IMG/VR virus record: IMGVR_UViG_3300025137_000174
Location: 1 to 30,319 of that record
Source of the DNA: a virus
Length of the DNA: 30,319 bases
Reading direction: 5' to 3' (one strand)
Part shown: positions 3,225 through 29,766 of the stretch, piece by piece
Layout of the letters: each line of letters begins with the position of its first letter
Position numbering within the stretch: position 1 is the stretch's first letter
Notes under the pieces: model-generated
Seen by the model: the letters and a program-made list of their open reading frames with translations, nothing else
Databases searched by the model: none
What the model was told of the DNA's origin: nothing
Made by a program: the position numbers and the translations under genes

Positions 3225-3898
3225 TGAAAACTAAAATTATATTGCATGGAAAATTGGCAAAAATTTATGGCAAAGAATTTCAATTCGCTAACATAAATAA
3301 ACCTTCGGATGCTGTTTTAGCCATCGACACTATTTTTCCAGGTTTTAGGAAACATCTTATAAGGGAAAGTGCGGGTGGCTCTCATTATGAATTAATTTGC
3401 GATAACGATAGCAAAACATTAAAAGATGTACAAGAGAAACAAAGAATAAAAATCGTAGAAATAGTTCCTTGTATTATAGGTCAAGTAGAGTTGATTATTG
3501 GCGGTATTATAGGATTATTTAAGGCGGGAGCTATTCAAAGTGTTTTTCTACAACAACTTGTTGTTAGTGTATCTGTGGGTTTAATTATGGCTGGAATTAT
3601 GTATCTGTTAACTCCAATTCCGGAAAACGAACCAAATGAAGCAGCGATATCTACAAATATTAAAAATAATTCTTTCTTATTTCAAACTCCTCAAAACATA
3701 ACGGTACAAGGTAGACCTGTGCCCATTGGATACGGAAGACTAAGAATTGGATCTATGGTAGTTGGACAAAACTTAACCAACTATGATTTATCTAGCGATA
3801 GGCAAAATGTTAGTTACGACTCTTTGAAAACAGAAGCTCTCTTGAAAATAAATGCATCTTTTGGCTCTTCGATTTCTAATTATTTTAGAGGATACTAA
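3224..3898 (+). CDS. I: Tail assembly protein I, copy 2
   Basis: A paralogue of the preceding I gene, 224 residues from a GTG start. The same landmarks occur in the same order: ILHGKLAKIYG, EFQFANINKPSDAVLAID, VEIVPCIIG, a long hydrophobic helix region ending AGIMYLLTPIPENEP, and VPIGYGRLRIGS. It has about 18 extra residues before the hydrophobic segment and lacks the Gly/Ser-rich tail of copy 1, ending NYFRGY instead. Its junction to the J gene (AGGATACTAATG) almost repeats the junction of copy 1 to copy 2 (AGGATACTAGTG), which points to tandem duplication. Presumably each I serves one of the two J proteins downstream. Confidence 0.8.
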   Translation: MKTKIILHGKLAKIYGKEFQFANINKPSDAVLAIDTIFPGFRKHLIRESAGGSHYELICDNDSKTLKDVQEKQRIKIVEIVPCIIGQVELIIGGIIGLFKAGAIQSVFLQQLVVSVSVGLIMAGIMYLLTPIPENEPNEAAISTNIKNNSFLFQTPQNITVQGRPVPIGYGRLRIGSMVVGQNLTNYDLSSDRQNVSYDSLKTEALLKINASFGSSISNYFRGY

Positions 3899-9118: not shown

Positions 9119-12100
9119 ATGAAGGATTTTAAAAAATATTTAAAAAATAAGTTACTTAACAAAAAGAAAATTGTTGGTAAGGCGACGCTCACTCCCCCGG
9201 ATGCCCAAGAAACTCTTCAATCTTCCAGTTCTTTAGCTGTTTTAGATTTGTTAGCAGAAGGCCCGATAGAGGGGCTCGTGGCACAAGATGGTAAATACGC
9301 CAACGGTTTAAGGCTATTTGAATCCTTTTATTTGAATAAAATACCTGTTAAAGCGCCAGAAACTGTAACGCCATTAACAAAAGACATACCTTATAGCAAT
9401 ATTATTAATGTTAATAGAGTGGGTGTTGATCAAATTAATAAATCTTTAGACAATATAGCTTCAAGATTATCTGGGGCTAAGGATTTTACCAGTTATACGG
9501 GGACAACTAATATTGGAGAGTATTTTAGAACTGGAGCATATTTCAGAGAATCAGATGGAGAATTTGAAGTAGATGCCGGTTTAACTTCCGTTCAGAGATT
9601 TAAATACCCTTTAACTCAAACAGCTGGTGAAACGGGGTTTGATGAAGATTTCAAAACAGAAAATAGTTTATCTAACGATCACCAACAAGCATTTGTATGT
9701 TTATTTAGACCCACTCTAACTACCAACTATCAATTTAAGTTAACCGCTGATGATGGAGCTTATTTTTTCTTAGGGCCCGCAATAGAGAGAAATTCTAGAG
9801 GTAAAGTCGATATGTTTTTTGACGAAGGTCATGGTACTGATCTAGCTTCTGCTGGTGGTGTTTCTTTTACTTCAGAAAAAACAGATGGTACGTCTTTTAC
9901 TTTTAACTCAGATGACAATGGTTATACCGGAAGGTCTAGAAGTGGTATAATGATCAGAAATGGAGAAGCTCAAGGTGCTACTGCTAGATTTGGACAAACT
10001 GGATTGGAAGCTAACAGATTATATCCAGTTTTAGTATTACATCAAGATAATGGAGGTGATGATGATTTAGTTGTAAGATTTAGAACTGGTACTTTAGCGA
10101 TTGATGGAAATGGCGGAAGCGCTACAGCAGACGGTGATTTTAAAAAAAATACTGAAACTCCAGCAGGGGGAGTGCCCAACATAGGTAATTTTTTAGTTAG
10201 AAAAGAACCTCAAGACAGTCCATACGGGAAAACAATCGGTGCAGATACTTGCACTGGAGACATATTTAATCTAGAAGGATTAGACGAATTTGGTTTACCG
10301 CTTGAAGCGTATGGAAATGTGGCAGGAAGTTTAAAAAACAATAAGCTAACAGAATTACAAGGATTTAAATCTGAGTTAGAAAATTTTTTAGATACAAATT
10401 CTGGATTAGCTAGATTTGGATTTGCCGAATATGATATCAACAACTTGTATTCGACCGACGATTTAATATCTGGAAGAATAAGCAAAAGAGATAACTTAGT
10501 GAGTTTGGCGACTGCTTTTGATTTTGAAAATGTGCTGACACAAAAATCTGGAACTTTTACAAACGTACCTTTTAAGAGACAAATTAAAATAGAAAGCGAT
10601 GACACAATTACAATACCGGATGATATTCATTTTATAGTTCCCTTAGTTGAAAGTGGAGTTACTGGATCTCTCCCAAATGGTGTGGGTAAAGTAGAAAACA
10701 TGCGTCGAGTTAGTGGTTTCGCAGGTGGAGGAATATTCTTTTTTGAAATTGGAGATACCGATTCTGTTACAGATAGTGACAAATTTAATACGGGTAGATT
10801 TTTTGTAGATAGCACTTCAAATGTAACGGATGTTACTGGCGCAATTACTTCTGGAATCACTGGTAATTACGATGTTTTTGTTTACGATTCAAATTCATTA
10901 TCATTAGAATCAGCTACTCCTACACAAATCACTCCGATAAAAGGTTTAACTGACGGATCAAACGTTAAAATTGGAATGATCAATGATTTAAAATCAACCT
11001 ACAATTATTCTAATGTATCTTTGTCTTTTAGGCATGGTTACGAAACGCAACCCGTTTTGGATGGATACGAACAGGGCACGCAAGATTTTGAAGTAAGAAA
11101 GGAACTTTTTGGCCCACTTTTATACAAAACAGGAGCTGAAGCTGGAGCGGGATACCAAGACTTAAGAACGGGTGGTCAAGATTTTTCTAATTGGATGATT
11201 AACCCACCTTTAGAGCATGACTCTTATCCACATACTCACATTATAAAAAGAGAAGAAGTTGATGAGTGTTATCCAACTATAAGTATAAACGCTTTGTATG
11301 ATACTTTAGAGTCCAGCGAGGATGCCGGAAAACAATTACCTAATACATTAAAACTAAGGGTTACTGTTGGATTTGAAGGCGCAATTGGAACGCCCGGTGA
11401 CGGAAACACCGAAGAGCAATTAGAAGCTGGAAATTCAATAGAACAAATAGCTTTAAAAAATTATACTCAAACTTTTGATAAAACATTTACCTCTTTAGTT
11501 TTGTCTACATACATGACAAGCATAACTGATAATCTTGATTATTTACCAAGTAATGAAAGTTTAAAAAATCTAAGGGTAGACCAAGCAAGTGTAGGCTCAG
11601 ACTTAACAGATGCACTTGTCGCAGAATACGATTATACAAGTGGAGATTTATTATTTCCAGGAGAAACTTGGAAGAATGTAAACAGATTTGTCAAGATTGA
11701 AAAACTAGATTCTGAAACAGATTCTGTATTAATGGCGAGAAGCTGCAGTATTAGTTATTTTACAGAAGTTATTAAGCAAAAATTTATATATCCATATAGT
11801 GCAATAGCTGGATCTAATTTTGATGCTAGAAGTTTCACCCAACAGCCAAGTAGAGAGTTCGATGTAAGGCTTAAAAAAGTTTTGATACCATCTAATTACG
11901 AACCTTTAAATCCAGACGGAACTGATAAAAGGTTTGTTGATAATTCATCAATATATGGAAGGAGAAGTATATTTAAATTTGATGGAACTGCGGGTGCCGG
12001 AACTAGATCAACCAATGCTGGACTAGCAAGCAAATCAATTAAATTAGGGCCTCACAATTTTGAAATTAGTTTAAAAATAAAATTTGGCGATGTGTCCTCA

Positions 12101-14665
12101 AGAAGAGATAGATCTTATCATTTGCTTGATATGCAAAGTGTAGATGCCGGATCCTCTAATCTTAATGACGATAGACTTAGCCTTATACAAAGAGGTAAAA
12201 CCGATGGAGGTGATAATGATACAGACGTCAACCCACAGCTAGTTTTATACAGTCCGAACGAAGGAGATACTAATATAGATATACCGGCTGGATTATCTAC
12301 AAGCATTGTATATCAAATCAAAATTAAAAGGGTTGGGGATAAATTAACGCTTTCAATACACAACTATGCAACTGGCGCACTTATAGGCGAATCAAGTGAC
12401 ACAGGTTATTCTAACGATAGTGTTAATTATGATGTTCTGGGCGAAAAAAGACTTGCGATTGGGCAGGCTTTTAACTTGGGTAATAAAACTTCAGCTGGCA
12501 CCCAAATAGCAGATTTAATAATTAAAAAAAATAACGAAATCATAAATTGGTGGGACGGAACGATAATAGATACAATACGAGGTGGTCTAGCCTTAAGAGA
12601 TAAAGTTGGTGGCTCTCATGCAGATTTAGCAAATACGCCAGGCAATGCCGGATCTGTTGTAGAAGATACAACTTTTGAATTTGGAAAAAATAAATCCACT
12701 CTATACAATGGACATTGGGATGGAACATTTAAATTAGGTTGGACGGACAATCCTGCGTGGATATTGTATGACTTAATGATAAATCCAATATATGGAATTG
12801 GAAACACTATAGATGATAGAGAAGATATTAATATATTTAGATTGTTTGAGCTTGCAAGATATTGTGATGCCGTAGATGCAGATGGATTATTTGATGGTGT
12901 CGCTAATTCTAATCAAGGTTTAGAACCAAGATTTTCAGCGAACGTTATGCTAGGTGTAGCAAAAAATGCATATGAAGTTTTGGGCAACATTGCTTCAATA
13001 TTTAGAGCTATATCTTTTTGGGACGGAGCCTCCTTGAACTTTAATATTGATAGACCTAAAGAAATTGCAGGCATATTTAATAATGGTAATGTGTTTGATG
13101 GAGTGTTTAATTATGCAGATGTAGTATCTTCCGCTAGATTTACTAGAGTTGAGGTGCCTTATGCTGATGCTGATGATCAATTTGTCACTAAAGTCGAGTA
13201 CGTGGAAGATGAGGAAAGAATTAGAAAATATGGAGTCATAACAAGTAGAATCAATGGAATTGGCTGTAGCTCAAAATCCCAAGCAAGAAGAATGGCTAAG
13301 TATGTTTTGCTCTCTAATAAACTTGAAACGGAGTTGGTTACATTTCAAGCTGGTAATGAAAGTTTGTTTTTAGAACCTGGAGATATTATTAGAATCGATG
13401 ATGAGCTTAAAAACTTTGAAATCAATTACGGAAGAATTTTGGAAATAAACACAGGAACCCCGGGTACGGTTAGTCCATATTTTGTTTTAGAAAACCAAGT
13501 AAACCCAAGCTCAATAATAATAGGGGAATCTGCTGGTGGTTTATACACATATAGCAATCCAAAACAGAGAGAATTAGAAAACCTTTATGATACAATTAAT
13601 TATGATAGAGCTTTAACTTTTGGAAATGATGGAGATACCGTCACTGGGAAGGTGCCAATTTCCGTAATTGAAGATCAAAATAAAGAACAAGTAAGTAAAT
13701 TCCACATAACTGGAGTTAGGGGTATTCACAATGGACTTAAAGTTCTTTTGAACAGTGGAAATGAAAATTTTTCAAATATAACTGGAGTTCAAGTGGGAAA
13801 TTTCTTCAACGTAGAATTAAACAATCAAATTACTGGAGAATTTAAAGTAGTAAAAATATCCCCAGAAGAAGATAACTTGTATCAAATACATGCGCTTCAA
13901 TACGAAAGGAAAAAATTTGATATGATAGAAGCTGAAGATTTTGATTTGGTGGAAAATACATACAACATTGGTATCCCCGCACATACAGTAAGCAGACCTA
14001 CAGCGCCAACCTTTAACTTCGAAATATTTGAAATTCTTAATGGTACTTTCAGTGTGACTGGAGATATAAATGCGGCAGGTAGTAGCGACGAAACTTCTTA
14101 TAGGGTTACTGTTTTGAAAACTGATAGATCGTCACCATATTTACAGAAAGTTGTTGAGCGATCATCAGATGACAGCACACCATTTAGAATTAATGGTTTA
14201 ATTAACGGAGATTACACAATAAGGGTTAACGCTTTAAAAAATCCAGAATCAAGCAATAACGCTTATGAGACTTTTTCAATAGCCCCGCCAACTTTAAAAT
14301 ATGTAAAATCTTTGATTGAAAACATTAGTTCTGATGTTGGTTCTGTTTACGACAGAGTAGGAGCAACCGGTTATGGTACTGGTCAATCTTTATCAAACGA
14401 TACGTTATATAATTTAAACATTGTGGATAAATACTCCAGACAAATGGACTTAAGTTTAGTTAATTACAGCTTAAATATTTATGCAAAAAGTGGAGAAAAT
14501 TATAATTTAGTAAAAGAAAACCACAAAGAAAACCAGTATACATTTACTGAAGTGCAAAATAGATTGACTTACGGACAAATGAGTACTGGCTTTGAGTTGC
14601 GATTTGAATTAATTCAAAACGAGAAAACTATAGATACAAGTTATTACAAAACTATAATAACTTAA
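9119..14665 (+). CDS. J: Tail tip / host-specificity protein J, copy 2, with PA14-like and LamG-like inserts
   Basis: The second gpJ-like hub protein, 1848 residues. It shares with copy 1 the N-terminal LDLLAEGPIEGL, the middle IIKREEVDE region, RLKKVLIPSNYEPL, HWDGTFKLGWTDNPAW (from about 1195), the EPRFSANVM region, and an FN3-like segment near 1630-1720. Residues about 185-325 carry a PA14-like carbohydrate-binding beta-barrel: YQFKLTADDGAYFF is the PA14 'DDG' strand, followed by a DDDLVVRF strand. Residues about 950-1140 form a LamG/concanavalin-like jellyroll inserted between 'DKRFV' and the WDG motif, where copy 1 has only about ten residues. The C-terminal 120 residues are extra relative to copy 1. 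Its stop overlaps the convergent gene by 14 bases. A TAATAT box lies eight bases before the ATG and no clear Shine-Dalgarno is present. Confidence 0.85.
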   Translation: MKDFKKYLKNKLLNKKKIVGKATLTPPDAQETLQSSSSLAVLDLLAEGPIEGLVAQDGKYANGLRLFESFYLNKIPVKAPETVTPLTKDIPYSNIINVNRVGVDQINKSLDNIASRLSGAKDFTSYTGTTNIGEYFRTGAYFRESDGEFEVDAGLTSVQRFKYPLTQTAGETGFDEDFKTENSLSNDHQQAFVCLFRPTLTTNYQFKLTADDGAYFFLGPAIERNSRGKVDMFFDEGHGTDLASAGGVSFTSEKTDGTSFTFNSDDNGYTGRSRSGIMIRNGEAQGATARFGQTGLEANRLYPVLVLHQDNGGDDDLVVRFRTGTLAIDGNGGSATADGDFKKNTETPAGGVPNIGNFLVRKEPQDSPYGKTIGADTCTGDIFNLEGLDEFGLPLEAYGNVAGSLKNNKLTELQGFKSELENFLDTNSGLARFGFAEYDINNLYSTDDLISGRISKRDNLVSLATAFDFENVLTQKSGTFTNVPFKRQIKIESDDTITIPDDIHFIVPLVESGVTGSLPNGVGKVENMRRVSGFAGGGIFFFEIGDTDSVTDSDKFNTGRFFVDSTSNVTDVTGAITSGITGNYDVFVYDSNSLSLESATPTQITPIKGLTDGSNVKIGMINDLKSTYNYSNVSLSFRHGYETQPVLDGYEQGTQDFEVRKELFGPLLYKTGAEAGAGYQDLRTGGQDFSNWMINPPLEHDSYPHTHIIKREEVDECYPTISINALYDTLESSEDAGKQLPNTLKLRVTVGFEGAIGTPGDGNTEEQLEAGNSIEQIALKNYTQTFDKTFTSLVLSTYMTSITDNLDYLPSNESLKNLRVDQASVGSDLTDALVAEYDYTSGDLLFPGETWKNVNRFVKIEKLDSETDSVLMARSCSISYFTEVIKQKFIYPYSAIAGSNFDARSFTQQPSREFDVRLKKVLIPSNYEPLNPDGTDKRFVDNSSIYGRRSIFKFDGTAGAGTRSTNAGLASKSIKLGPHNFEISLKIKFGDVSSRRDRSYHLLDMQSVDAGSSNLNDDRLSLIQRGKTDGGDNDTDVNPQLVLYSPNEGDTNIDIPAGLSTSIVYQIKIKRVGDKLTLSIHNYATGALIGESSDTGYSNDSVNYDVLGEKRLAIGQAFNLGNKTSAGTQIADLIIKKNNEIINWWDGTIIDTIRGGLALRDKVGGSHADLANTPGNAGSVVEDTTFEFGKNKSTLYNGHWDGTFKLGWTDNPAWILYDLMINPIYGIGNTIDDREDINIFRLFELARYCDAVDADGLFDGVANSNQGLEPRFSANVMLGVAKNAYEVLGNIASIFRAISFWDGASLNFNIDRPKEIAGIFNNGNVFDGVFNYADVVSSARFTRVEVPYADADDQFVTKVEYVEDEERIRKYGVITSRINGIGCSSKSQARRMAKYVLLSNKLETELVTFQAGNESLFLEPGDIIRIDDELKNFEINYGRILEINTGTPGTVSPYFVLENQVNPSSIIIGESAGGLYTYSNPKQRELENLYDTINYDRALTFGNDGDTVTGKVPISVIEDQNKEQVSKFHITGVRGIHNGLKVLLNSGNENFSNITGVQVGNFFNVELNNQITGEFKVVKISPEEDNLYQIHALQYERKKFDMIEAEDFDLVENTYNIGIPAHTVSRPTAPTFNFEIFEILNGTFSVTGDINAAGSSDETSYRVTVLKTDRSSPYLQKVVERSSDDSTPFRINGLINGDYTIRVNALKNPESSNNAYETFSIAPPTLKYVKSLIENISSDVGSVYDRVGATGYGTGQSLSNDTLYNLNIVDKYSRQMDLSLVNYSLNIYAKSGENYNLVKENHKENQYTFTEVQNRLTYGQMSTGFELRFELIQNEKTIDTSYYKTIIT

Positions 14666-19061: not shown

Positions 19062-19697
19062 ATGCCAAGAAACATTAATTTACCAAAAGCTAGAGTCTTT
19101 ATAAGACAAGATATGTGGGGAGGTTCTCCAGAAGAGTTTGAGCCCGCGTGGTTAGTATCTGTACGAGCGTTAAGGGGTAGACCCTTTTGCTTTCAAGTAT
19201 GGATAGATAGTCATTGCGCTTGTTATGACAAAGTAAGACCCGACTGTTTATACTGGAAGCTGCCGGAAAAGGATCATGAAAAACTCGATTTAGTAGACGT
19301 GCAAATGTGGGAATGTTTATCGAATGATATAGAATTGTTTCAAAAAGCTCAACTTGCCGATGTCCCTATGTTAGTGAATATGGGTGATGGAGACTTTGAA
19401 GAAGGTAATTACTGGTTCACTATTGACTGCGTGCCAGAAAAACAATCACTTGGATATATGGATGTAGGTGATTCAGATTTATTGGACGAACACAAAGAAA
19501 TGAATGTTATACGCCTTAAAAATGGTCAAGTGGCTATTTACCCTAACAATAGATTAAAGTGGATTCCGGAATCTCTTAGTAGCACCGAAGCTATAAAAAA
19601 GATACCTAAATGGAAAGTAGCAGAAAATGCTGTTTGGGACAAAAAATGGCTGGAACAGCCATACGAATTATTTGGAGACTCCGATTGGAGTTATTAG
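19062..19697 (+). CDS. Unrecognised phage protein
   Basis: A 211-residue acidic, Trp-rich protein (INLPKARVFIRQDMWGGSPEEF at the start; DSDWSY at the end). I do not recognise the family. The arginine- and aromatic-rich beginning is followed by an acidic region (about 70-110), a strand-rich middle (NYWFTIDCVPEKQS) and a basic patch (KKIPKWKVAENAVWDKKW). No membrane segment or signal peptide is visible. It is a lone plus-strand gene between two minus-strand operons, divergent from the possible ssDNA-binding gene and overlapping the convergent kinase-like gene by four bases. TAATAT lies seven bases before the ATG without a Shine-Dalgarno, so it may have its own promoter. Confidence 0.75.
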   Translation: MPRNINLPKARVFIRQDMWGGSPEEFEPAWLVSVRALRGRPFCFQVWIDSHCACYDKVRPDCLYWKLPEKDHEKLDLVDVQMWECLSNDIELFQKAQLADVPMLVNMGDGDFEEGNYWFTIDCVPEKQSLGYMDVGDSDLLDEHKEMNVIRLKNGQVAIYPNNRLKWIPESLSSTEAIKKIPKWKVAENAVWDKKWLEQPYELFGDSDWSY

Positions 19698-20770
19698 ATG
19701 ATTTTATTAAAGTCCCCAAACATTTTATCGAGGGTTTCAACATATATTGGAAACTCCTTAAACACTAAAGGTCTGATATTTTGATACGAGTTGAACAAAC
19801 CAACCATTCCTTCATTGTTTACTATAATTAATCTGTAAAAATACGTGCATATTATTTCGTGAAGCATAATTTTAAAACAAACATCTTTATAGGCGGGTAA
19901 CGCATCTTTGATTTCTTTTTCTTTTTCTGCGTTGTAATGTTTTACAAACTTAGACTCTAAAATTGGGAAACGATGCAATTCTGTTTTAATACAAATCATA
20001 GCTAAATCCCAGATAGGGCTCAATACAAAAGATTCATGAAAATTACAGAACTTAAAGATATTATTTCTGAAAAGTATATTGGAAGGTTTTAAATTTGTAT
20101 GGCAAATACAAGCATCTACTTCCGGCATAGATTCGATTTGTAATAAAATACAATCTTTTAGTGATTTTAAAATTTGTTGACAATTATTAAATTGATCAAT
20201 ATTTTTTAATTCATCTAAGTCTTCGCTATCCAAAACTTCATCAAATGAAGCCATCGAAAAACACATATCTAAAAACATATCCCTCTCGGAAAAATCAGAT
20301 TTAGAATTATTGTGTATTGTTTTTAGCGACCCAGCAAAACTTTGAAGATTTTTAGTTATGCAAGATAAGCCTTCGTTTTTTACTGATTGTGAAAATTCAA
20401 AAGATGTTATGAGGCAAGAGTAATTTTCGTCTCTAGCAATTAATATTGGAGTGGGAGATACTTTGTGTTTTTCTATTTTCTTTAAAACATCAAATTCTCT
20501 TTTAAATATATAGTGATCATCTTCATCTCCAAATTTAAGGCAATAAGTTTCGTTTTCACTGGCAAAAGTAAAAACATCATAGTAAAAATTTCTATCTAAA
20601 AGTTTTAACGATTTAATTTCCTTAAAGCGAGATGAGATTTTATAATTTTTTTTAAAAATTTCTTTAATGAGTTTTTTTTCTATATGGCCAATACTCATAT
20701 CTTTGGATTCAGATATAACCCTGCCCTTTAGGAAATCTGAGTAATCCATATCTAATTGATCTTCTATCAT
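19694..20770 (-). CDS. APH/choline-kinase-fold protein, probable pseudokinase
   Basis: A 358-residue protein with the order of an aminoglycoside-phosphotransferase-type kinase. An ATP-site lysine sits in YCLKFG (K79), a matching Glu in KREFDVLKKI (E92), a catalytic-loop-like HTNLKPSNILF (H224 to N231), a metal-loop-like KFCNFHES (N243), and SPIWDLAMI closes the motif. The two key aspartates are missing: HGD is HTN (Asn226 replaces the catalytic base) and the DWE/DFG Asp is Asn243. Either the activity is lost or it depends on other residues. It follows the Clp-like gene by ten bases in the same operon, so the two may work together. AAGGA lies almost on top of the ATG; an internal ATG at 20749 is an alternative start. 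Confidence 0.65.
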   Translation of the reverse strand: MIEDQLDMDYSDFLKGRVISESKDMSIGHIEKKLIKEIFKKNYKISSRFKEIKSLKLLDRNFYYDVFTFASENETYCLKFGDEDDHYIFKREFDVLKKIEKHKVSPTPILIARDENYSCLITSFEFSQSVKNEGLSCITKNLQSFAGSLKTIHNNSKSDFSERDMFLDMCFSMASFDEVLDSEDLDELKNIDQFNNCQQILKSLKDCILLQIESMPEVDACICHTNLKPSNILFRNNIFKFCNFHESFVLSPIWDLAMICIKTELHRFPILESKFVKHYNAEKEKEIKDALPAYKDVCFKIMLHEIICTYFYRLIIVNNEGMVGLFNSYQNIRPLVFKEFPIYVETLDKMFGDFNKII

Positions 20771-20780
20771 ATCCTTTATA

Positions 20781-22172
20781 TTAAATAAAACCTATGTGTT
20801 TTCCAACAGAAATGTTAGTATTGTTTTTAACATTATCTATTGTAGTATTTAATTTTTGAGCAAAAATAGTATGTATTGTATTCAATTCTACTTTTGTAAC
20901 ACTTTGAGAGTCGCAATTTAAGATTCTGGTTTTAGCTCCTGCTTCATCTATAATATCAAATGCTTTATCTGGAAATTTTTTCTCTGGCAAATACTCTTCA
21001 CAAAGGTTAACTAACTGTTTGATTATTGATGGAGTGAATCTTACATTATGAAACTTTTCATAAGAAGATTTGGCTTTAAGCATTAATTTTACAGTTTCTT
21101 CTTTGTTGGATTCTAGTATATCTATTTTTTCAAAACGGCGATTTAAAGCAGAGTCTGCTTTAAAATACTTATCGTATTCATCTTTTGTTGTCGCGCCTAT
21201 GCAAGAAAAACCTCCCCTAGATAAAACGGGTTTTAAACTGTTGGCTAAATCCAAACTACCTTCAGAGCTTCCTGCGCCTACTATCGTGTGTATTTCGTCA
21301 ATAAACAAAACGTATTCGTCGCTATTTGATATTTTGTCTATAATCTGTTTAACCTTTTCTTCCATTTGGCCGCGATACATTGTACCAGCTAAAACAGAGG
21401 TCATATCTAAAGAAAGAATTTTTTTGTGTTTTAAAAACTTGGGGCATTTGTTTTGTACTATTTTTTCCACTAAACCCTCAACAATAGCAGTTTTACCTAC
21501 ACCCGCTTCACCAACCAAAATAATATTGCTTTTATTTTTTCTTAATAGTATTTCACAAGACCTTTCGATTTCTTTTTCTCGCCCAAAAATTTCAAAAGTG
21601 CCACGATCTTCAACTGTCTGGTTTATGTTTTCGCACCAATCGCCTATATCTATTTTTGTTTTTGTATTTGCTGTTGTGGGAGAAGGGGCGACAACTTCTA
21701 TCATAGGTGGAGGAGAATTGTAATCAATCCCATTTTTTATTACATATAATAATGTAGCGCAAAACTTATCAACATCTATTCTTAATCCTAAAAAGAAATC
21801 TCTAATTTCAGTTCTTGTGTTTAGTATGGTAATAAGCATGTGGTCTACGCCTATAAATTCATCTTTCGTCTTATCGGATAATTCTTTTGATTTATCTAGT
21901 ATCTCAAATATTTCTGGGGCAAAAACTCTATACTTTCTTTTAGGTTCTTTGTATGCTTCTAAAACGATTTCCAATGAAATCATAAACCCCTCTTGAAGCC
22001 AGCCATTTACTTCCATTGCAAATTTTATATTATTTTGTTCGCTTTGGAGTATAGAATATATTAAATGTACATCTATAACCTTTAAATGACCGTTTTCGGT
22101 GCCTATTTCTTGGGCTCTTATTAAAGCCTCTTTAGCTGAAGGCGTTAAGTTGTAGCTTGAAAAGTCTGTCAT
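20781..22172 (-). CDS. Clp-type AAA+ ATPase with N domain and a single D1 ring
   Basis: A 463-residue ClpA/ClpC-like unfoldase. Residues 6-145 carry a Clp N domain (two repeats, starting LTPSAKEALIRAQEIG and FAPEIFEILDKSKELS). A Pro/Thr linker (about 150-180) leads to a full D1 AAA+ module: GREKEIERSCEIL, Walker A GEAGVGKT (221-228), pore loop MYRG (Y266), Walker B VLFIDE (288-293), sensor-1 GATT, and arginine fingers RR345-346. The second ring (D2) and any ClpP-binding loop are absent; bacterial ClpA/ClpC are about 750-850 aa. It ends in a normal stop 24 residues after the D1 lid, not at a frameshift. It overlaps the polymerase gene by four bases (ATGA). It may remodel replication or host proteins. 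Confidence 0.8.
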   Translation of the reverse strand: MTDFSSYNLTPSAKEALIRAQEIGTENGHLKVIDVHLIYSILQSEQNNIKFAMEVNGWLQEGFMISLEIVLEAYKEPKRKYRVFAPEIFEILDKSKELSDKTKDEFIGVDHMLITILNTRTEIRDFFLGLRIDVDKFCATLLYVIKNGIDYNSPPPMIEVVAPSPTTANTKTKIDIGDWCENINQTVEDRGTFEIFGREKEIERSCEILLRKNKSNIILVGEAGVGKTAIVEGLVEKIVQNKCPKFLKHKKILSLDMTSVLAGTMYRGQMEEKVKQIIDKISNSDEYVLFIDEIHTIVGAGSSEGSLDLANSLKPVLSRGGFSCIGATTKDEYDKYFKADSALNRRFEKIDILESNKEETVKLMLKAKSSYEKFHNVRFTPSIIKQLVNLCEEYLPEKKFPDKAFDIIDEAGAKTRILNCDSQSVTKVELNTIHTIFAQKLNTTIDNVKNNTNISVGKHIGFI

Positions 22173-24739
22173 TTAATTTCGGATAATCTTGTATAGATTT
22201 TTTCATCTAGGATGTTTATTTTTTCCCCAAAGATAATATCTTCTCCTTTTGAACCGTAAATAAATACAATTTGACCTTCTTTGGGTTTCTTGCCCCCTTC
22301 GTTGAGATAATTATCAAGAGTAGCTGACCTTCTGTTATTGGTCATCATAAAGTTTATTTTTCCATAATCATCTTGTATTTCGACTCTCATGTATTTATTG
22401 CCCGCTCTACTTGTTCTGGAAACGCAATCTGTTACGACTCCAACATACTTTACACGATCATTTTGCTGAATCGACTTTAATTCCAAACTATTGACAAGAT
22501 TTTTTGTATCTTGAAAGACTTTTTTGATCTCGTTAGAATGGCTATACCCCAAATACTTGCGCTCAAAATACCAATTAGCGAAAACCAAATGTTCTTTGTT
22601 TTTGTCGTAAATTTGGCGGTATTTATCGTAATCTCTTTTAAATGTTTTGAATCTAGAATCTTTTATTAAAGGTCTGCCATCATCCGCAGGATAATTATCT
22701 TTTTTAACAACAGCTATAGAATTGAGAATATCATAGTTAAATTTGTCTCCAAGATTAATAAAGTTTCTTTTTTCCCTATCTGTTAAAAGATTAAAAGCTT
22801 GAGCCTCCAATACTAGACGGCACCGATTTGGTACACCGTCTACAAAATTACAAAAAGAATCCATCATGCCTCCTTGTATTAAGCCAGATACAATACCGAT
22901 GTTGATTCCAGATTGTTTCGCTGACACAAACACATCGTATTTGTTCTGCTCCAAGAGTTCAGATTTTCTAAACTCAACTAAATTTTCTAAAGTTTTTTCT
23001 GAAACTCCTTTAATACTGTTGATGCCATAACGAATATTTTTACCTTCAATAGAAAACTCTACATCAGATTTAGATAAATCTGGCGGCAAAAGCTTCATGT
23101 CGAAGAGGCAAAACTCTTGGCTTATTAAGGAAATTTCTGAATGAGAGTCTGGTTCATGCTTTGTCATTTTAAGCAGGGATAAGAAAAACTCTTTCGAATG
23201 GTTGAACTTAAGGTATGTAGTGATCGCCGCTAACGTAGCGTAACTAATTGAGTGAGATTTGTTGAAAGAATAATTAGCCGAATCTTCAGCAACCTTCCAC
23301 AAAACATCTCCGACTTGTTTTGATAAACCTTTTTCCTCTACCTTCTCTTCAATCTTAGCTTTCCAAGCTGGCATTAAATCTACTTTTTTCTTACCAACAA
23401 TTCTTCTTAGTTGTTCCGCTTCATCTAATGTGAAACCAACTTTAACAGCCATTTGCATTAACTGCTCTTGGTATAAAGGTATCCCGCCAGTATACGAAAG
23501 TATATCATCAAAAAACTCGTGCACAGAACTGAAAACACCAGTCTTTACGTAACTAGCGTATGTGTCTAAGTAATCAAGAGCACCAGGACGAGCAATAGCG
23601 ACAACAGCAGACAGTTCTTCAAGGTTTCTGGGAGCAATTTTCCTAGCTGCCTTAAAGTTTGTATCCGCTTCAATCTGGAAGAGACCCTTTGATGCCTCAA
23701 TGAATTTGAAGTTTTCATATATATCTGTTGATTCGACATCTATGGTTTCTACTTTTTTACCTAATTGCTGAAGTGTATCGTAAACAACAGATAAAGTTCT
23801 TAGACCTAAAATATCGAACTTAACCATCAAAGATGCCACATCGTTCATATCGTACCCCGAAACATAATTGCCATCATTTGTTTTCTGCATTGGCATTACC
23901 TCGTCGATATTATAGAAACTAATCGCAATCCCCGATGGGTGAACGCCAGTGTTCTTGTTTAATCCTTCTAATTTTCTGGCTATTTTAAATACTTTTGGGT
24001 TGTCGTCACAAAACTTTTTAAGTTTTTCGCTTTCATCATAAGCTTTTTCTAACTTAAACACCTTGCCGAATTGTTTTGGAATTGAGGAGCTAATGTCATT
24101 TACTTCTTCCTCTGAGAACCTCCCTACAATCTTACCGCACTCTTTTACACACAATTTACTACTCAACGTGTTGAGGGTTAAGATTTTACATGTTTTACCT
24201 TTATGCTTATCTTCAATATATTTGATTACCTCGGCTCTTCGGTCGTAACTGATGTCATTGTCCACGTCAGCCAATAAAGAGCCGTCTAGGTATGTTATAT
24301 CGTCAACAATGGTCTTTTTAGCTCTGCTCTTAGATACAAATCGCTCAAAAAAGAGATTATATTGGATTGGGTCAATATTTGTTACTTTTAATAAATATAA
24401 TACTAAAGAACCTGCCGCAGAACCTCGACCTGGGCCAGTTGGTATATCGTTTTCGTGACAAAAGTTAAGAATATCCCAATTTAAAAGTATATAGTCAATA
24501 AATCCAAGCTCCTGTAAGACGGTCAATTCCATTTTAACACGATCGTAATAATCTTGTTTATTATCTAATTTATCTATACCCCTTTCTTTGACTCCCTTTA
24601 AACACAATTCTCTGAGCAAATCGTAATTAGAGGATGTGTTTGGTATGCTTAATTCATCATAGAATCTTTGTTCTACCTCAATCTCTGGTAGTCTAACACC
24701 TACTGGCATTGGTTGTTTAAATGGGTTTAATTTAAGCAT
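22169..24739 (-). CDS. dnaE: DNA polymerase III alpha (C-family) lacking the PHP domain
   Basis: The catalytic subunit of a bacterial-type C-family replicative DNA polymerase, 856 residues. Visible in order: GPGRGSAAGS (about 100-109), the acidic palm segment ADVDNDISYDRR (about 155-166) with its catalytic aspartates, KFDILGLRTL (about 306-315) with the third catalytic Asp, IARPGALDYL, PLYQEQLMQMA, the SFNKSHSISYATLA finger segment, a helix-hairpin-helix-like INSIKGVSEKTLENL, and an OB fold (about 757-800). The N-terminal PHP domain of about 280 residues is absent and appears as a separate gene at 25878-26573. A short insert (KKTIVDDITYLDGSLL) precedes the palm. I chose the ATG at 24739, which overlaps the previous gene by eight bases, over a TTG at 24793. 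Confidence 0.88.
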   Translation of the reverse strand: MLKLNPFKQPMPVGVRLPEIEVEQRFYDELSIPNTSSNYDLLRELCLKGVKERGIDKLDNKQDYYDRVKMELTVLQELGFIDYILLNWDILNFCHENDIPTGPGRGSAAGSLVLYLLKVTNIDPIQYNLFFERFVSKSRAKKTIVDDITYLDGSLLADVDNDISYDRRAEVIKYIEDKHKGKTCKILTLNTLSSKLCVKECGKIVGRFSEEEVNDISSSIPKQFGKVFKLEKAYDESEKLKKFCDDNPKVFKIARKLEGLNKNTGVHPSGIAISFYNIDEVMPMQKTNDGNYVSGYDMNDVASLMVKFDILGLRTLSVVYDTLQQLGKKVETIDVESTDIYENFKFIEASKGLFQIEADTNFKAARKIAPRNLEELSAVVAIARPGALDYLDTYASYVKTGVFSSVHEFFDDILSYTGGIPLYQEQLMQMAVKVGFTLDEAEQLRRIVGKKKVDLMPAWKAKIEEKVEEKGLSKQVGDVLWKVAEDSANYSFNKSHSISYATLAAITTYLKFNHSKEFFLSLLKMTKHEPDSHSEISLISQEFCLFDMKLLPPDLSKSDVEFSIEGKNIRYGINSIKGVSEKTLENLVEFRKSELLEQNKYDVFVSAKQSGINIGIVSGLIQGGMMDSFCNFVDGVPNRCRLVLEAQAFNLLTDREKRNFINLGDKFNYDILNSIAVVKKDNYPADDGRPLIKDSRFKTFKRDYDKYRQIYDKNKEHLVFANWYFERKYLGYSHSNEIKKVFQDTKNLVNSLELKSIQQNDRVKYVGVVTDCVSRTSRAGNKYMRVEIQDDYGKINFMMTNNRRSATLDNYLNEGGKKPKEGQIVFIYGSKGEDIIFGEKINILDEKIYTRLSEIK

Positions 24740-25286
24740 TGATGATTGTTTTAATGTTTTTGATTTCTTCCACAAGTTTGTTGTTAAATGCAATTAATTG
24801 TTCAGCTTTGTATTTTTCCACTTCTAATTCATGTAAAGCTTGTAAATGTTTTTTTTCTAAATTTATTTGGTTTTTTAAAAACTTTTTAAATTCTGTTTTT
24901 AAGTCTTTTATATGGTATTCGAAATCATGTCTAAGTTTATCTGAATTAATTGATATTTTTTTAATATCTTCGCAATTAGCTTTTCTTAAACGACCGCAAT
25001 CAAATATTAGTTTAAATTCTACAAAGTAATTATATTGCACAGATTGCACCACACTAAATATAGAAAACGAACCGTTATAGTCTACGATTGAATCTTCTAA
25101 CATTAATAATCCATCTAAGGTTATGGTATAATTATTGTTTTCTTGTTTAAAGTCATAAGTTTGAAAAAGATTTGTTAAAGCAATATCTCTTTCAATATCT
25201 CTCAGTAGCACAAAAGATCCCCACTGCACCTTGTGTAGAAAGGCTTCGGGTCTCTCAAATACAATTATGTCAAAATCTTTTACCAT
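24732..25286 (-). CDS. Coiled-coil protein within the polymerase operon
   Basis: A 184-residue protein I do not recognise. The first 110 residues look globular (IIVFERPEAFLHKV, YTITLDGLLMLEDSIVDY, FVEFKLIFDCGRL). The rest (about 120-184) is a long charged helix with Leu/Ile spacing typical of a coiled coil (KKFLKNQINLEKKHLQALHE, then LEVEKYKAEQLIAF). The ATG at 25286 sits four bases after the exonuclease stop; earlier starts would overlap that gene by up to 140 bases. It sits between the DnaQ-like exonuclease and the polymerase, so it could bridge them, but that rests only on position. Confidence 0.7.
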   Translation of the reverse strand: MVKDFDIIVFERPEAFLHKVQWGSFVLLRDIERDIALTNLFQTYDFKQENNNYTITLDGLLMLEDSIVDYNGSFSIFSVVQSVQYNYFVEFKLIFDCGRLRKANCEDIKKISINSDKLRHDFEYHIKDLKTEFKKFLKNQINLEKKHLQALHELEVEKYKAEQLIAFNNKLVEEIKNIKTIINA

Positions 25287-25290
25287 TTGT

Positions 25291-25920
25291 TTATATTTCC
25301 AACTCCCATATTTGTTTTTGAAAAATTTCAAAATTCTTTTCAATATCATATAGAGCATCATGTAGTTTGCTTTCATTAAAGTCAATACTATAATGTTGCA
25401 AAAGGTGTTTTTGATTTGTTTTGAGACCACGCCTTCTAAAATTTAAGTATCTCATTTGCCAAGCAAGCAAGTCGTCTTCTGGTTTTTTATTATCTTCTGC
25501 AATAGCTTTAGCTAAGATGTTTGTATCTAAGAGTTGATTTATAAAGTTTGAGTGATTTAATCTTTGGCCAATTTTTCTAGCCCAAATACCTAAAATATAA
25601 ATATCGTAACCAAGAATATTATGACCAAGAATAATATTATCTCCATACAAGACTTTTTCGAAATCTGCCCAAACAACCTTTGGATCTTCGGCAACAGATT
25701 CATAATGAGCTCGGTCGAATCCTGTGACTCGAGCCGCATCTGGAGAAACATCTAAGTCGTCCCACTTAATAAAGCGATTATGTTTTTTTATAACCTTTTT
25801 ACCTTCACACTCAATCCAAGCTATTTGCCAAGGTTTAGAAGTAATTAGGTTTAATCCCTCTGTCTCCGTATCAAAAACTACGTAGCGCTGTTTAAAATTG
25901 TATCTGAGTAAGTCTTCCAT
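25291..25920 (-). CDS. dnaQ: DnaQ-like 3'-5' exonuclease (proofreading, DEDDh)
   Basis: A 209-residue DEDDh exonuclease matching the epsilon proofreading subunit of Pol III. The active-site residues are all present: D17 and E19 (VVFDTETEG), D106 (ILGHNILGYD), and H187 with D192 (HDALYDI). The spacing and length are normal for a stand-alone epsilon-type domain. I do not see a clear clamp-binding motif. It overlaps the PHP-like gene by 43 bases, and both conserved ends are needed, so the overlap is real. With the polymerase and PHP-like genes it forms one transcription unit that encodes the catalytic and editing parts of the replicase. Confidence 0.88.
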   Translation of the reverse strand: MEDLLRYNFKQRYVVFDTETEGLNLITSKPWQIAWIECEGKKVIKKHNRFIKWDDLDVSPDAARVTGFDRAHYESVAEDPKVVWADFEKVLYGDNIILGHNILGYDIYILGIWARKIGQRLNHSNFINQLLDTNILAKAIAEDNKKPEDDLLAWQMRYLNFRRRGLKTNQKHLLQHYSIDFNESKLHDALYDIEKNFEIFQKQIWELEI

Positions 25921-26573
25921 GATTCAAAGCTAAATTCATCACTACCAAAGTGATCTAGTCCAGGGTTTGATAGATCGTAAGTTCTACCTATCCTGCGGTT
26001 ACAAATTAATTTATAAGTTTGAAAAGCTAACACGTCTTCTTTGGTTTCGTAATATATTGATTTGCCGGGCAAGCATTTGTTTGCGTGGTTCTTGCAGTAA
26101 CTTAAAATTTTGTCTTCAATTAAACAATCAAAGGGTAAGTTATTGTCTTCTAAAATAAAAGGCACATCCGAGGGTAAGTCAACAACACAATTAGAGAAGG
26201 TTGTTAAGTTTTTATGTAAAAAAGAATCGTAAAAAGGTACAACATATTGCAAATTTTTTGTAGAGTCCCAAGGCTTTGCTATTTTAATATCTGATTGTTC
26301 TGTGAATAGTTTATATAGCTCTTTAGCTCCAGTATCTCCATTTGCGAAAGCAATCATTTTACTTTCGGATTCTTCATTGCGGTCTTCATTAAACATAGAA
26401 AATCTTAAACCAAATCGCAATCTATCACCAAATTTTCTAAAAGCTTCTGGAAAGCCCGTCATACTGTCTTCAACAAAGTAAACTTCATCAAAGTCTTTTG
26501 TTAAATCATAAACATCATCTATGCGTAAAATGCTTTTACCGATAGATGCGTGCGTTTTAAAGAATGGAATCAT
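25878..26573 (-). CDS. Detached PHP-like domain of DNA polymerase III alpha
   Basis: A 231-residue protein that reads like the first 230-280 residues of DnaE. FFKTHASIGKSILRIDDVYD matches the LH-x-HS opening; FDEVYFVEDSMTGFPEAFRKF matches the 'aiTDhgnm' strand; LRFGLRF matches the 'piiG.E' strand. The C-terminal LPGKSIYYETKEDVLAFQTY matches the 'NDvHYl..ED..a...' region before the polymerase core. The usual His-x-His pair has only one His here (H8) and several other metal ligands are not seen, so phosphoesterase activity is probably lost. A structural role with the PHP-less polymerase is the likeliest use. A well-formed promoter lies directly upstream and the ATG has no Shine-Dalgarno. Confidence 0.7.
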   Translation of the reverse strand: MIPFFKTHASIGKSILRIDDVYDLTKDFDEVYFVEDSMTGFPEAFRKFGDRLRFGLRFSMFNEDRNEESESKMIAFANGDTGAKELYKLFTEQSDIKIAKPWDSTKNLQYVVPFYDSFLHKNLTTFSNCVVDLPSDVPFILEDNNLPFDCLIEDKILSYCKNHANKCLPGKSIYYETKEDVLAFQTYKLICNRRIGRTYDLSNPGLDHFGSDEFSFESWKTYSDTILNSAT

Positions 26574-26610: not shown

Positions 26611-27087
26611 TTATATCAATAAATCTTTGATTAGAATATTGTAACAGTCAGATTTAAATTTCCACTTGCCATTGCCTCTAGGGTCTACCTGGCCTTTCTC
26701 GCCAAATATAGCCTTATCGTAAAAATCTTTCTTTTTCATAAAGCCGTAAACATAAGCTATTGTATTAGATTCGTTAACGCCAACAAAACAATAAGCGTCG
26801 CATTTTTGCTTGGTGTTGTAATCAGAAACATTCAAATTCCAGCTTTTGTTTGGGGCAAATTGATCTGAAAACTTTTTTGTTTTGATGTCGACTTTATAAT
26901 TTTTGATAATTGTGTCGTAGTCGTAAGTGTTTTCGCCACTTCCTTTGTATGCATCTTTAACTATGATTTCACCTACTGCTCCCGCCAAATTACCTTCGCC
27001 CTTTGTGATGCTATTATTTAATTCTTTAAAATCAAAAAGTTTTTTGGCTCTTTCTAGTTGTGGTTTTGTAACTAAATATTTTTTCAT
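26611..27087 (-). CDS. PD-(D/E)XK nuclease-like protein
   Basis: A 158-residue protein with the restriction-endonuclease-like core: an N-terminal helix with E40 (GAVGEIIVKDAY), D56/D58 in TYDYDTI, and the VDIKTKK strand (D67, K69) that gives the D-x-K pair. NVSDYNTKQKCDAYCFVGV supplies the following helix and strand. It may act as an endonuclease in genome processing, recombination or host DNA breakdown. I took the ATG at 27087, which overlaps the upstream stop as ATGA; an in-frame start at 27102 would overlap by 19 bases. It is the last gene before the strong promoter. Confidence 0.65.
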   Translation of the reverse strand: MKKYLVTKPQLERAKKLFDFKELNNSITKGEGNLAGAVGEIIVKDAYKGSGENTYDYDTIIKNYKVDIKTKKFSDQFAPNKSWNLNVSDYNTKQKCDAYCFVGVNESNTIAYVYGFMKKKDFYDKAIFGEKGQVDPRGNGKWKFKSDCYNILIKDLLI

Positions 27088-28073
27088 AAATGCTTTGGGC
27101 AACCTTTGTAATACTTTATAGAGTGAGATCCGCCTTGTGGAACCATGTCTTTAACAAAATTATCTTGAAAACACGACATAATATGTTCGCCTAACTCGTT
27201 GAGTATTTCTACATAAAAGAAATCGAATTTAAATGGGCAATGCCACATTAAAGAACCATCTTTTTTTAGTTGGCCTTTTTCTTTTGCGAAACCACATTGA
27301 AGTTTACCGCTAAAAGTTCCGTCATCTGGAAAGCCTTTATCGTAAGCAAAATTTCCTATAGCATCGCACTCATCAAAGTTTTCTAAATAGTTTTGTATAT
27401 TGGCTAACTGCATTTCGAAACCCTCTAAATCATCTTCATCTAAGGGTTTCATTTTCATTAAGCCTTTTTTCTTGAGATCAAATTTTAAAAATAAAAACTC
27501 AGCACTTCGATTTGTGTATTCTGGGAATAAATGTTTTACAGCCAAGCAATACATATAGTCTTGAAGATTGTCGTCTTTTTCTTTCCCCTCAAACATTTTT
27601 TTACTTGTTTTGTAATCTCTGATTATGGCTATCTTTTTATCTTTGTATAAAAACAACTGATCTATAAAACCTCTTATACGGTAACCGTTTTTTTCTATAT
27701 CAAAATCTAATTCTGCGTGAGCGGCATCTGGTATGCCTAAATCTTCACCATGAAAATTGCAACTTAAACCATTTAGAATCATTTGTTTGATTAGGGTCAT
27801 GTTATCTTCGTCTGTAACCCCAAGCTCTGTAGCATCAGACATAATTAAATCTTTGACAGCTTTAGCTGCAAAAGGATCCTTGGCTTTTGTTATTTTATTG
27901 AATTGTGTTTTTGTTTTTTGTTTGGAAAGGTGCTCGAATACATTATGACACACGGTACCTCTTCTAGCCCCATCATTGCCGTTTTCTGGCAACTTTAATT
28001 TGTATTTAGACCAATATAACCAACTACAAGATTGTGCGGTTTTTATGCGACTTGCTGATAGTATGGTTTCCAT
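27084..28073 (-). CDS. Cas4/RecB-like PD-(D/E)XK nuclease
   Basis: A 329-residue member of the RecB/Cas4/AddB nuclease superfamily. It opens with LSASRIKTAQSCSWLYW, has a GTVCHNVFEHL helix, then GFIDQLFLYKDKKIAIIRDYKTSKKM (D and D-x-K of the active site) and the DNLQDYMYCLAV motif that follows it in this superfamily. Cys16 near the start plus several late Cys (LQCGF, WHCPFKFDFF, GCPKH) could bind an iron-sulfur cluster, as in Cas4 and AddB, but which four would do so is not clear. It starts by TAATG overlap with the methyltransferase-like gene. The likely role is 5' or end resection for recombination in phage replication. Confidence 0.8.
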   Translation of the reverse strand: METILSASRIKTAQSCSWLYWSKYKLKLPENGNDGARRGTVCHNVFEHLSKQKTKTQFNKITKAKDPFAAKAVKDLIMSDATELGVTDEDNMTLIKQMILNGLSCNFHGEDLGIPDAAHAELDFDIEKNGYRIRGFIDQLFLYKDKKIAIIRDYKTSKKMFEGKEKDDNLQDYMYCLAVKHLFPEYTNRSAEFLFLKFDLKKKGLMKMKPLDEDDLEGFEMQLANIQNYLENFDECDAIGNFAYDKGFPDDGTFSGKLQCGFAKEKGQLKKDGSLMWHCPFKFDFFYVEILNELGEHIMSCFQDNFVKDMVPQGGSHSIKYYKGCPKHL

Positions 28074-28747
28074 TATATTTTTCTTAGATTTATTGCTCTA
28101 ATTTTTTTAAAGTCTGATAAAAGAATATATTCAAGCAATTGATTAAAATTTAATTCTGGCAGTGTTTTATATTTTGATTTTAATAAAGCGTATTTTTTTT
28201 CTATATTTTGAAAGTCATTTATATCGTATAGTATAGTCCAATACCACATCACTTTGTGTTTTATGTTTTTTGTTAGTTTGGTTAATGTTTCATGTATTGA
28301 ATCTTTGTCTTCTGGAGCGTTGTAATGATCTATAGTCAAAAAATCACATTCCCCAATATAATCGTTAGCGTCTATGCAAATAACGTTCATTTTTGGATGA
28401 TTCATTATTTCTGGATTCATTTTAAATTGCAAATCGATTAAATCTTGTGATTTTTCTAAAACAGTTATTTTTTCTACTTTTGAATTGGACAATAATAAAC
28501 TTTCTCTAATTAATAAACCTAATCCCGTGCAAACACAATGGCCAAAAGCTAATTGATAATCGGCTATATGTTCGTAATAGGTGATTAAGCTTTTCTTGTT
28601 AGTGTAGTTCATATTTTTACCATCAATAAATAATGTAATATCATCTTTGTGACCCAATAAGCCAGATTTAATTTCGCAACTTTTGTACTCTAGACGTTCC
28701 ATTCTAGGGTATATATAGTTTTTGTTTTTTACAATTTCAGAAATCAT
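28073..28747 (-). CDS. Class I SAM-dependent methyltransferase-fold protein
   Basis: A 224-residue protein with a Rossmann methyltransferase core: a glycine-rich motif I in FGHCVCTGLGLLIRE (about 68-82), an acidic residue ending strand 2 in ITVLEKSQDL (E98), D126 in VICIDAND, and FLTIDHYNAPED as strand 4. No NPPY or DPPY motif for base methylation is present, so DNA adenine methylation is unlikely; the pattern is nearer to spermidine-synthase-like proteins. I chose the ATG at 28747, which overlaps the primase stop (ATGA), over an upstream TTG. Its place between primase and nuclease genes is not explained by any known pathway. Confidence 0.6.
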   Translation of the reverse strand: MISEIVKNKNYIYPRMERLEYKSCEIKSGLLGHKDDITLFIDGKNMNYTNKKSLITYYEHIADYQLAFGHCVCTGLGLLIRESLLLSNSKVEKITVLEKSQDLIDLQFKMNPEIMNHPKMNVICIDANDYIGECDFLTIDHYNAPEDKDSIHETLTKLTKNIKHKVMWYWTILYDINDFQNIEKKYALLKSKYKTLPELNFNQLLEYILLSDFKKIRAINLRKI

Positions 28748-29766
28748 GATAAAGTTTTTATTAGTTTTTTGCAATTTGAATTTTTACGTAACACATCTAA
28801 TGATTTTATTTGTTCTGTAATCCATTCCTGTGTTTTCTTGTCTGACAGATTCCATTTGCACTTTCTACTATGCCACTTTTCAAACATATCAAAATTTGAT
28901 GGGTTGGATTCCAGCATGTCACCGAAGTCATTTGCAAGTGGTGGGTTGATACATATTTGATCAAGGTCGTATATTTGAGATAATTTAGCAACGGTTTTAA
29001 TTGTAGCTATGCCACCAGAATTAGTTTCCTTATCTTTATCGTTGTTCATTGATACAACAATTCTCTTTAGTGGAAAAGTGTTGATATAAGACATTAATTT
29101 TGACGAAATATCTAAACCAAAAGCAACCAAGACATTTTTAAATCCTGCTTCATGTAGCGCCAAACAATCTCCAATACTTTCTACTAAAACAACCTCGTTA
29201 TCTATTTCCGCTAAATGATTAGGGTATATCCAATCTGTTTTACGGCCCATGTGTTTCCATTTGGGTATATTATCACCTTCTGTTATTGTGCGGCCAGAAA
29301 AACCGTGTATTTGACCATTTAAATTATATATTGGGAAAACCATTCTACGATACATTTTGCCATTACCAGCATATCCACATTTAAATGTTTTTTGTGTCTC
29401 TGGTGATATGCTTTTCTTCTCGTAAAAAGTTCTTATTGGCAAAAGCTTTTCTAAATGTGATTCTGGGTATACTGTTTCCATCTCTATTTTTTCTTCTTTA
29501 GTTGTCGGGGTGTGAACCGTTAGCGACTCTCCAATATATTCTTTTAGTATATTTGGATTATCTGTTTTTAGGGTTTCTTTAACTAAAGCTTGAAATGGTT
29601 TCGCTTGATTATCTAAGCCGAAATCTTTCCAAACACCAGAGTCTTTATATATTATAATAGCAGTTTTGTTTTTTCCACTTCTATACACAGCGCTGGTTCT
29701 CCAGTGCGAACCGCAATCTTGGAGTCTATACCCCAATTTTTCTAAACTGTCTTTATAGGTCATCAA
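28744..29766 (-). CDS. DnaG-type primase with Toprim domain
   Basis: A 340-residue primase-like protein. Residues about 105-185 match the N-terminal lobe of the RNA polymerase domain (RMVFPIYNLNGQIHGFSGR). The Toprim domain follows (about 190-270): VLVESIGDCLAL gives E196 and D200, NVLVAFGLDIS is the next strand, and the DxD pair is D243 and D245 in MNNDKD. The N-terminal region keeps a zinc-finger-like strand layout (HWRTSAVYRSGKNKTAIIIY, then GVWKDFG) but has no Cys/His set to bind zinc. It overlaps the helicase gene upstream. It presumably makes primers for the neighbouring helicase and polymerase. Confidence 0.8.
   Translation of the reverse strand: MMTYKDSLEKLGYRLQDCGSHWRTSAVYRSGKNKTAIIIYKDSGVWKDFGLDNQAKPFQALVKETLKTDNPNILKEYIGESLTVHTPTTKEEKIEMETVYPESHLEKLLPIRTFYEKKSISPETQKTFKCGYAGNGKMYRRMVFPIYNLNGQIHGFSGRTITEGDNIPKWKHMGRKTDWIYPNHLAEIDNEVVLVESIGDCLALHEAGFKNVLVAFGLDISSKLMSYINTFPLKRIVVSMNNDKDKETNSGGIATIKTVAKLSQIYDLDQICINPPLANDFGDMLESNPSNFDMFEKWHSRKCKWNLSDKKTQEWITEQIKSLDVLRKNSNCKKLIKTLS

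Follow-up and report, generated by a model that had tools for sequence, protein, structure and literature searches.

The DnaE-type replicase of a tailed phage is encoded in pieces: its polymerase gene begins at the palm, the missing PHP domain of DnaE is the product of a separate gene of 231 codons upstream, and a DnaQ-type exonuclease is encoded between the two. The split replicase is real and well conserved, its layout being shared across a widespread group of uncultured aquatic phages, and it is probably functional. On the reading that the evidence favors, and that seems likely, the alpha subunit was divided at the PHP/palm boundary, and the PHP protein became a structural subunit that docks in trans on the palm, where it probably holds DnaQ near the primer end and DnaQ alone carries out proofreading.

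The window, which is the whole 30.3-kb stretch of DNA that was analyzed, is a genome fragment of a tailed phage from a virus record. Its plus strand carries lambda-like tail genes and its minus strand a replication cluster, in which the order of genes in the direction of transcription is DnaG-type primase, an unknown gene, a PD-(D/E)XK nuclease, a 163-aa gene, PHP, DnaQ, a coiled-coil protein, the polymerase and a ClpA-like ATPase (Table 1). The four ORFs that the initial annotation had assigned to the replicase were all found where it placed them, on the minus strand. Both of the ORFs that it put between PHP and the polymerase are real, DnaQ being recognized by PF00929, but the coiled-coil gene is not conserved. 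The DnaQ and PHP ORFs overlap by 43 nt. A primase gene upstream of PHP and the PD-(D/E)XK nuclease gene are also syntenic in many relatives. The 163-aa gene is upstream of PHP in the window, but certain relatives, such as L021, L027, and L120, have it between PHP and DnaQ.

Table 1. Genes of the split replicase and its neighborhood in the window.
Feature	Position	Strand	Evidence
DnaG-type primase (context)	28744..29766	-	PF08275, phrog_47
PD-(D/E)XK (RecB/Cas4-like) nuclease (context)	27084..28073	-	PF12705
163-aa gene	26611-27102	-	weak DUF6998 match
Separate, degenerate DnaE PHP domain, 231 aa	25878..26573	-	profile, structure, hhalign
DnaQ-type 3'-5' exonuclease, 209 aa	25291..25920	-	PF00929, phrog_192
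Accessory coiled-coil protein, 184 aa from ATG 25286 (likely start); ORF open from 25430	24732..25286	-	
PHP-less DnaE polymerase core, 856 aa: palm, fingers, HhH, OB	22169..24739	-	Pfam, conservation

Several other genes of the window were also characterized. The ClpA-like protein downstream of the polymerase (20781-22172, minus strand, 463 aa) has an N domain and the first AAA domain only. More distant relatives (L020, L028) encode versions of about 800 aa with a second AAA domain; this second half was apparently lost in the lineage of the window (L002-L019). The adjacent 358-aa protein (19694-20770, minus strand), which carries APH-type kinase-like motifs (HTNLKPSN), was considered as the missing Clp half and rejected. 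On the plus strand, tandem proteins of 1609 and 1848 aa (3898-8727 and 9119-14665) both match the lambda central tail fiber J (phrog_31), indicating a duplicated tail-tip gene, and a 211-aa protein (19062-19697) matches a PHROG annotated as ferredoxin (phrog_3704, 1.2e-33) and is possibly an auxiliary metabolic gene.

The identification of the 231-aa protein as the PHP domain of a split DnaE, first suggested in the initial annotation, is borne out by profiles, predicted structure and profile-profile alignment, all of which agree. As a single query, the protein had no significant Pfam match and a faint match to the DnaE N-terminus (phrog_405, E 0.079). Among 73 of its homologues, however, 68 matched the PHP family PF02811 (best 1.9e-17) and 66 matched DnaE family models. 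A profile of the PHP piece matched residues 52-252 of Taq DnaE at about 4e-8. The initial annotation had also proposed a profile comparison with the PHP domain of DnaE, and hhalign aligned the two with a probability of 98.4 and an E value of 4.9e-15 over 217 columns. The top 20 matches of its AlphaFold model (pLDDT 90.5) in the PDB are all PHP domains of DnaE or PolC, with TM scores up to 0.81. The matches to PDB structures and the hhalign result rule out a different fold. The dN/dS of the PHP piece against near relatives is 0.05-0.10, and therefore the gene is constrained. A tblastn search of cultured phages with the PHP piece gave no match.

The position of the break can be read from an intact DnaE (L174), on which the profile of the PHP piece covers residues 24-251 and that of the polymerase begins at residue 280; the break therefore falls at the PHP/palm boundary. 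The upstream gene had been described as having the PHP layout through to the strand before the palm. While its identity as PHP holds, that strand (GVRLPEI) sits in the polymerase piece. In neither piece did homology recover the final helix of PHP, which precedes the palm at about residues 257-270 of DnaE.

The polymerase itself starts at the palm, as had been reported from the sequence. It matches PF07733 (5e-63) from position 2 of the profile, PF17657 (2e-27) and PF14579 (5e-13); its matches extend over the palm, the fingers, HhH and, weakly, OB, and no PHP domain was detected by Pfam in this ORF. The ORF is open from 24793, and the ATG at 24739 is favored because both the relatives and the conservation point there. 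The AlphaFold model (pLDDT 87.3) matches DnaE structures. The catalytic aspartates D176, D178, and D180 and the palm motif GRGSAAGS are invariant among 49 relatives. The protein thus has the palm, fingers and thumb and the three aspartates of a C-family (DnaE) polymerase, but not the PHP domain in the same chain. At the other end, only 23-36 residues follow the OB reference point in the family, and no position of a clamp-like Q-x-x-hydrophobic-aromatic motif is common to more than 4 of the 49 polymerases. The short chain and the lack of a shared clamp-type motif indicate that the polymerase is without the tau-binding and clamp-binding parts of the E. coli enzyme.

A second interruption was observed in the polymerases of four relatives (L171 5995-8979, L209 7372-10576, L216 7712-11608, and L223 7372-11250), which are cut again between SFNK and SHSISYA, apparently by a split intein. 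The N-half of these apparent inteins begins with Cys, and the C-half ends with HNFY...SN, followed by S. In L216 and L223, an ORF of ~315 aa with the look of a Vsr-like nuclease lies between the polymerase halves, as in "fractured genes." Relative to the split-intein site of cyanobacterial DnaE, the insertion presumably lies about three residues further on.

The third component, DnaQ, appears to be an intact exonuclease. All 48 sequences compared keep its five DEDDh residues (D17, E19, D106, H187, and D192), a site shared with canonical epsilon. The E. coli epsilon subunit binds the PHP domain via a C-terminal tail (PMC3666897). In contrast, in the phage protein (209 aa) about 17 residues follow D192, the last of the catalytic Asp residues, and past the exonuclease domain there is no C-terminal tail with which to bind PHP.

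The arrangement of these genes is highly conserved. All 146 loci that hold the three genes carry them on a single strand, with PHP first, DnaQ second, and the polymerase last. A wider search recovered 201 loci with both PHP and polymerase, although some contigs were fetched twice and the independent contigs number fewer than this; in all 201, the two genes share a strand and are unfused, with PHP upstream. Thirteen further loci with just one of the two genes appear to be contig or locus ends. The PHP piece is encoded by at least 577 viral contig stretches. PHP, DnaQ, and the polymerase all evolve under purifying selection, with dN/dS values of about 0.04-0.11. The earlier statement that the layout is not found in bacteria is consistent with the present results: those family members that come from genome contigs all belong to metagenome-assembled bins, and their contigs could be co-binned phage.

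The wider gene content of the family was examined in 18 larger records of relatives (up to 211 kb), which are fragments or of unknown completeness. Each encodes exactly one DnaE-type polymerase (PF07733), with no PolA or PolB by Pfam. Pfam found neither an additional PHP domain nor an additional replicative polymerase in these records, each of which has one or no detectable PHP domain. Four of them (G014, G016-G018) gave no Pfam match for PHP though their PHP piece is known by homology, which indicates that the sensitivity of Pfam for this domain is limited. Although 17 of the 18 records encode a DnaB-type helicase, neither a bacterial beta clamp nor a T4-type clamp (PF02916) was detected in them by Pfam, and the clamp-loader family PF13177 gave solely matches below its cut-off.

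The PHP piece has lost its metal site. The initial annotation noted that it lacks the His-x-His pair; this was confirmed, and the remainder of the site is gone as well. None of the nine PHP metal ligands (HHDHEH[C/H]DH) is kept in the window protein, and among 73 family members the fourth is retained in 3 and the others in none, where the columns of the first three ligands are approximate because they lie outside the part aligned by hhalign. Several of the former ligand positions now carry a different, conserved residue (R57, K72, F114, S172, and Y174). Judging from these replacements, the PHP piece is expected to be enzymatically dead, and for this reason a structural role is likely, in agreement with the earlier suggestion. 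Dead PHP domains are known to go with a separate exonuclease, and the dead PHP domain of E. coli still stabilizes Pol III and supports its activity (PMC3666897). The presence of a dead PHP and an intact DnaQ in the phage family matches this correlation.

Based on these observations, the PHP piece is most likely a structural subunit, as yet putative, that acts in trans. As a separate subunit it would dock back onto the palm of the polymerase and would stabilize it. Once docked, it would probably also position the DnaQ exonuclease near the primer end, and proofreading would then fall to DnaQ alone. The docking of DnaQ on PHP is the weakest step of this scheme, because DnaQ is without the tail by which epsilon binds PHP. 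Assembly of the pieces may be helped by their co-expression from a single operon, in which genes overlap both in the window and in many relatives.

A PHP piece that left the polymerase for another job, for example, binding a nucleotide, phosphate or DNA or regulating replication, would leave behind a polymerase that works PHP-free. This reading is unlikely, although it draws on two features of the family: the former ligand positions are conserved and several have become basic (E to R57 and H to K72), which could mark a new binding pocket, and in some relatives inserted genes lie between PHP and DnaQ. It must be set against the location of the PHP gene upstream of the polymerase in every locus with both and against the retention of the PHP fold over its whole length. 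Moreover, PHP is reported to be a strictly conserved domain of bacterial replicases, needed for their stability and activity (PMC3666897). Within the preferred reading, that of a subunit docked on the palm, the conserved residues may have a further meaning. It is conceivable, if rather doubtful, that the old metal site has turned into a pocket, conserved and in part basic (R57 and K72, perhaps also K6 and K13), for the binding of DNA, pyrophosphate or the exonuclease. The separated PHP would then be a new kind of obligate polymerase subunit, which brings in a tail-less DnaQ in a manner unlike bacterial Pol III and within a replisome that has no recognizable bacterial clamp.

The initial annotation proposed a four-gene replicase that included the coiled-coil protein. 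The coiled-coil gene lies between DnaQ and the polymerase and has a dN/dS of 0.075 against L007; it is therefore a real gene, and this constraint would be compatible with an obligate four-subunit enzyme. However, homologues are present in 9 of 156 loci, all from near relatives of the window, and in 98 of 146 loci the DnaQ and polymerase genes overlap with nothing between them. The conserved unit thus consists of three genes (PHP, DnaQ, and the polymerase), and the coiled-coil protein is a lineage-specific extra that stands outside it. An obligate role for a protein missing from nearly the whole family is improbable, and it would be at best the accessory of one sub-lineage.

The remaining two alternatives are far less probable still. 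Many DnaE PHP domains keep their metal site, including those of split cultured actinophages, but the loss of all ligands in the window, their near-complete loss in its family and the complete active site of the neighboring DnaQ make it most improbable that the PHP piece is itself the proofreading nuclease. The split inteins inside the polymerase of the four relatives described above might suggest that PHP and polymerase are likewise joined after translation, or the split might be a frameshift or an assembly artifact; there is next to no likelihood of either, since the extra sequence is too short to hold intein halves at the PHP/polymerase break (PHP pieces of 226-285 aa in the relatives and 16-34 residues before the LPEI motif of the polymerases), which rules out joining by an intein, the DnaQ gene lies between the pieces, and the layout recurs in the 201 loci from many samples under purifying selection, the dN/dS values ruling out a pseudogene or frameshift.

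The split replicase bears on two wider questions. The role of the dead PHP domain is still debated. Because PHP is a separate protein in a large family of aquatic phages, its contribution can be tested by adding or omitting it. In addition, it shows that in phages a replicative polymerase can be divided between two of its domains while the resulting pieces stay together as neighboring genes, and this has probably happened more than once.

The initial annotation implied that the split is unique. This was too strong, as the same PHP/palm split is found among deposited genomes of cultured actinophages. In Rhodococcus phage MacGully, the depositors annotated gp68 as "PHP domain" and gp67 as "palm, fingers, thumb domains," and Gordonia phage Terapin (gp65/gp67) and Microbacterium phage FreddieHg (gp57/gp58) are divided in the same way. 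As in the window, the PHP gene is upstream. In contrast to the window family, the PHP proteins of all three actinophages keep all nine metal ligands and look catalytic, and no DnaQ gene is annotated between the pieces. In a maximum-likelihood tree, the window family forms one clade (100/100), the deep placement of which is unsure given the long branches, while MacGully pairs with the intact DnaE of Skysand and Terapin with that of Troll4, apart from the window family. With the actinophage splits placed among intact actinophage DnaEs, the splits look independent and not of shared origin. The PHP/palm cut therefore probably arose several times.

Other divided DnaEs differ in where the break falls or in how the pieces are joined. 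In Cellulophaga phage phi13:1 (gp38/39), Rossellomorea phage phiT1 (gp18/20), and Bacillus phage KLEB27-3 (gp164/166), DnaE is likewise spread over two genes, but the break is inside the palm or fingers and PHP is still fused to the palm. Cyanobacterial alpha is also encoded by two genes, but its parts are joined by protein splicing of a split intein, whereas the PHP/polymerase break of the window has no intein halves. No description of a phage DnaE split between PHP and palm was found in the part of the literature that was searched, and a published mention may exist.

Another close parallel is the Pol III core of E. coli (alpha and epsilon), which likewise combines a dead PHP domain with a separate DEDDh exonuclease. 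The E. coli PHP domain (2hnh/5fkw) matches the fold of the phage PHP piece with TM scores of 0.79-0.81. While PHP is part of alpha in E. coli, it has a gene of its own in the phage, whose polymerase is without the tau-binding domain and the consensus clamp motif and whose DnaQ is without the PHP-binding tail. Because DnaE is well known and PHP/palm splits exist in cultured phages, the split replicase of the window family is best regarded as a variant on what is known and not as wholly new.
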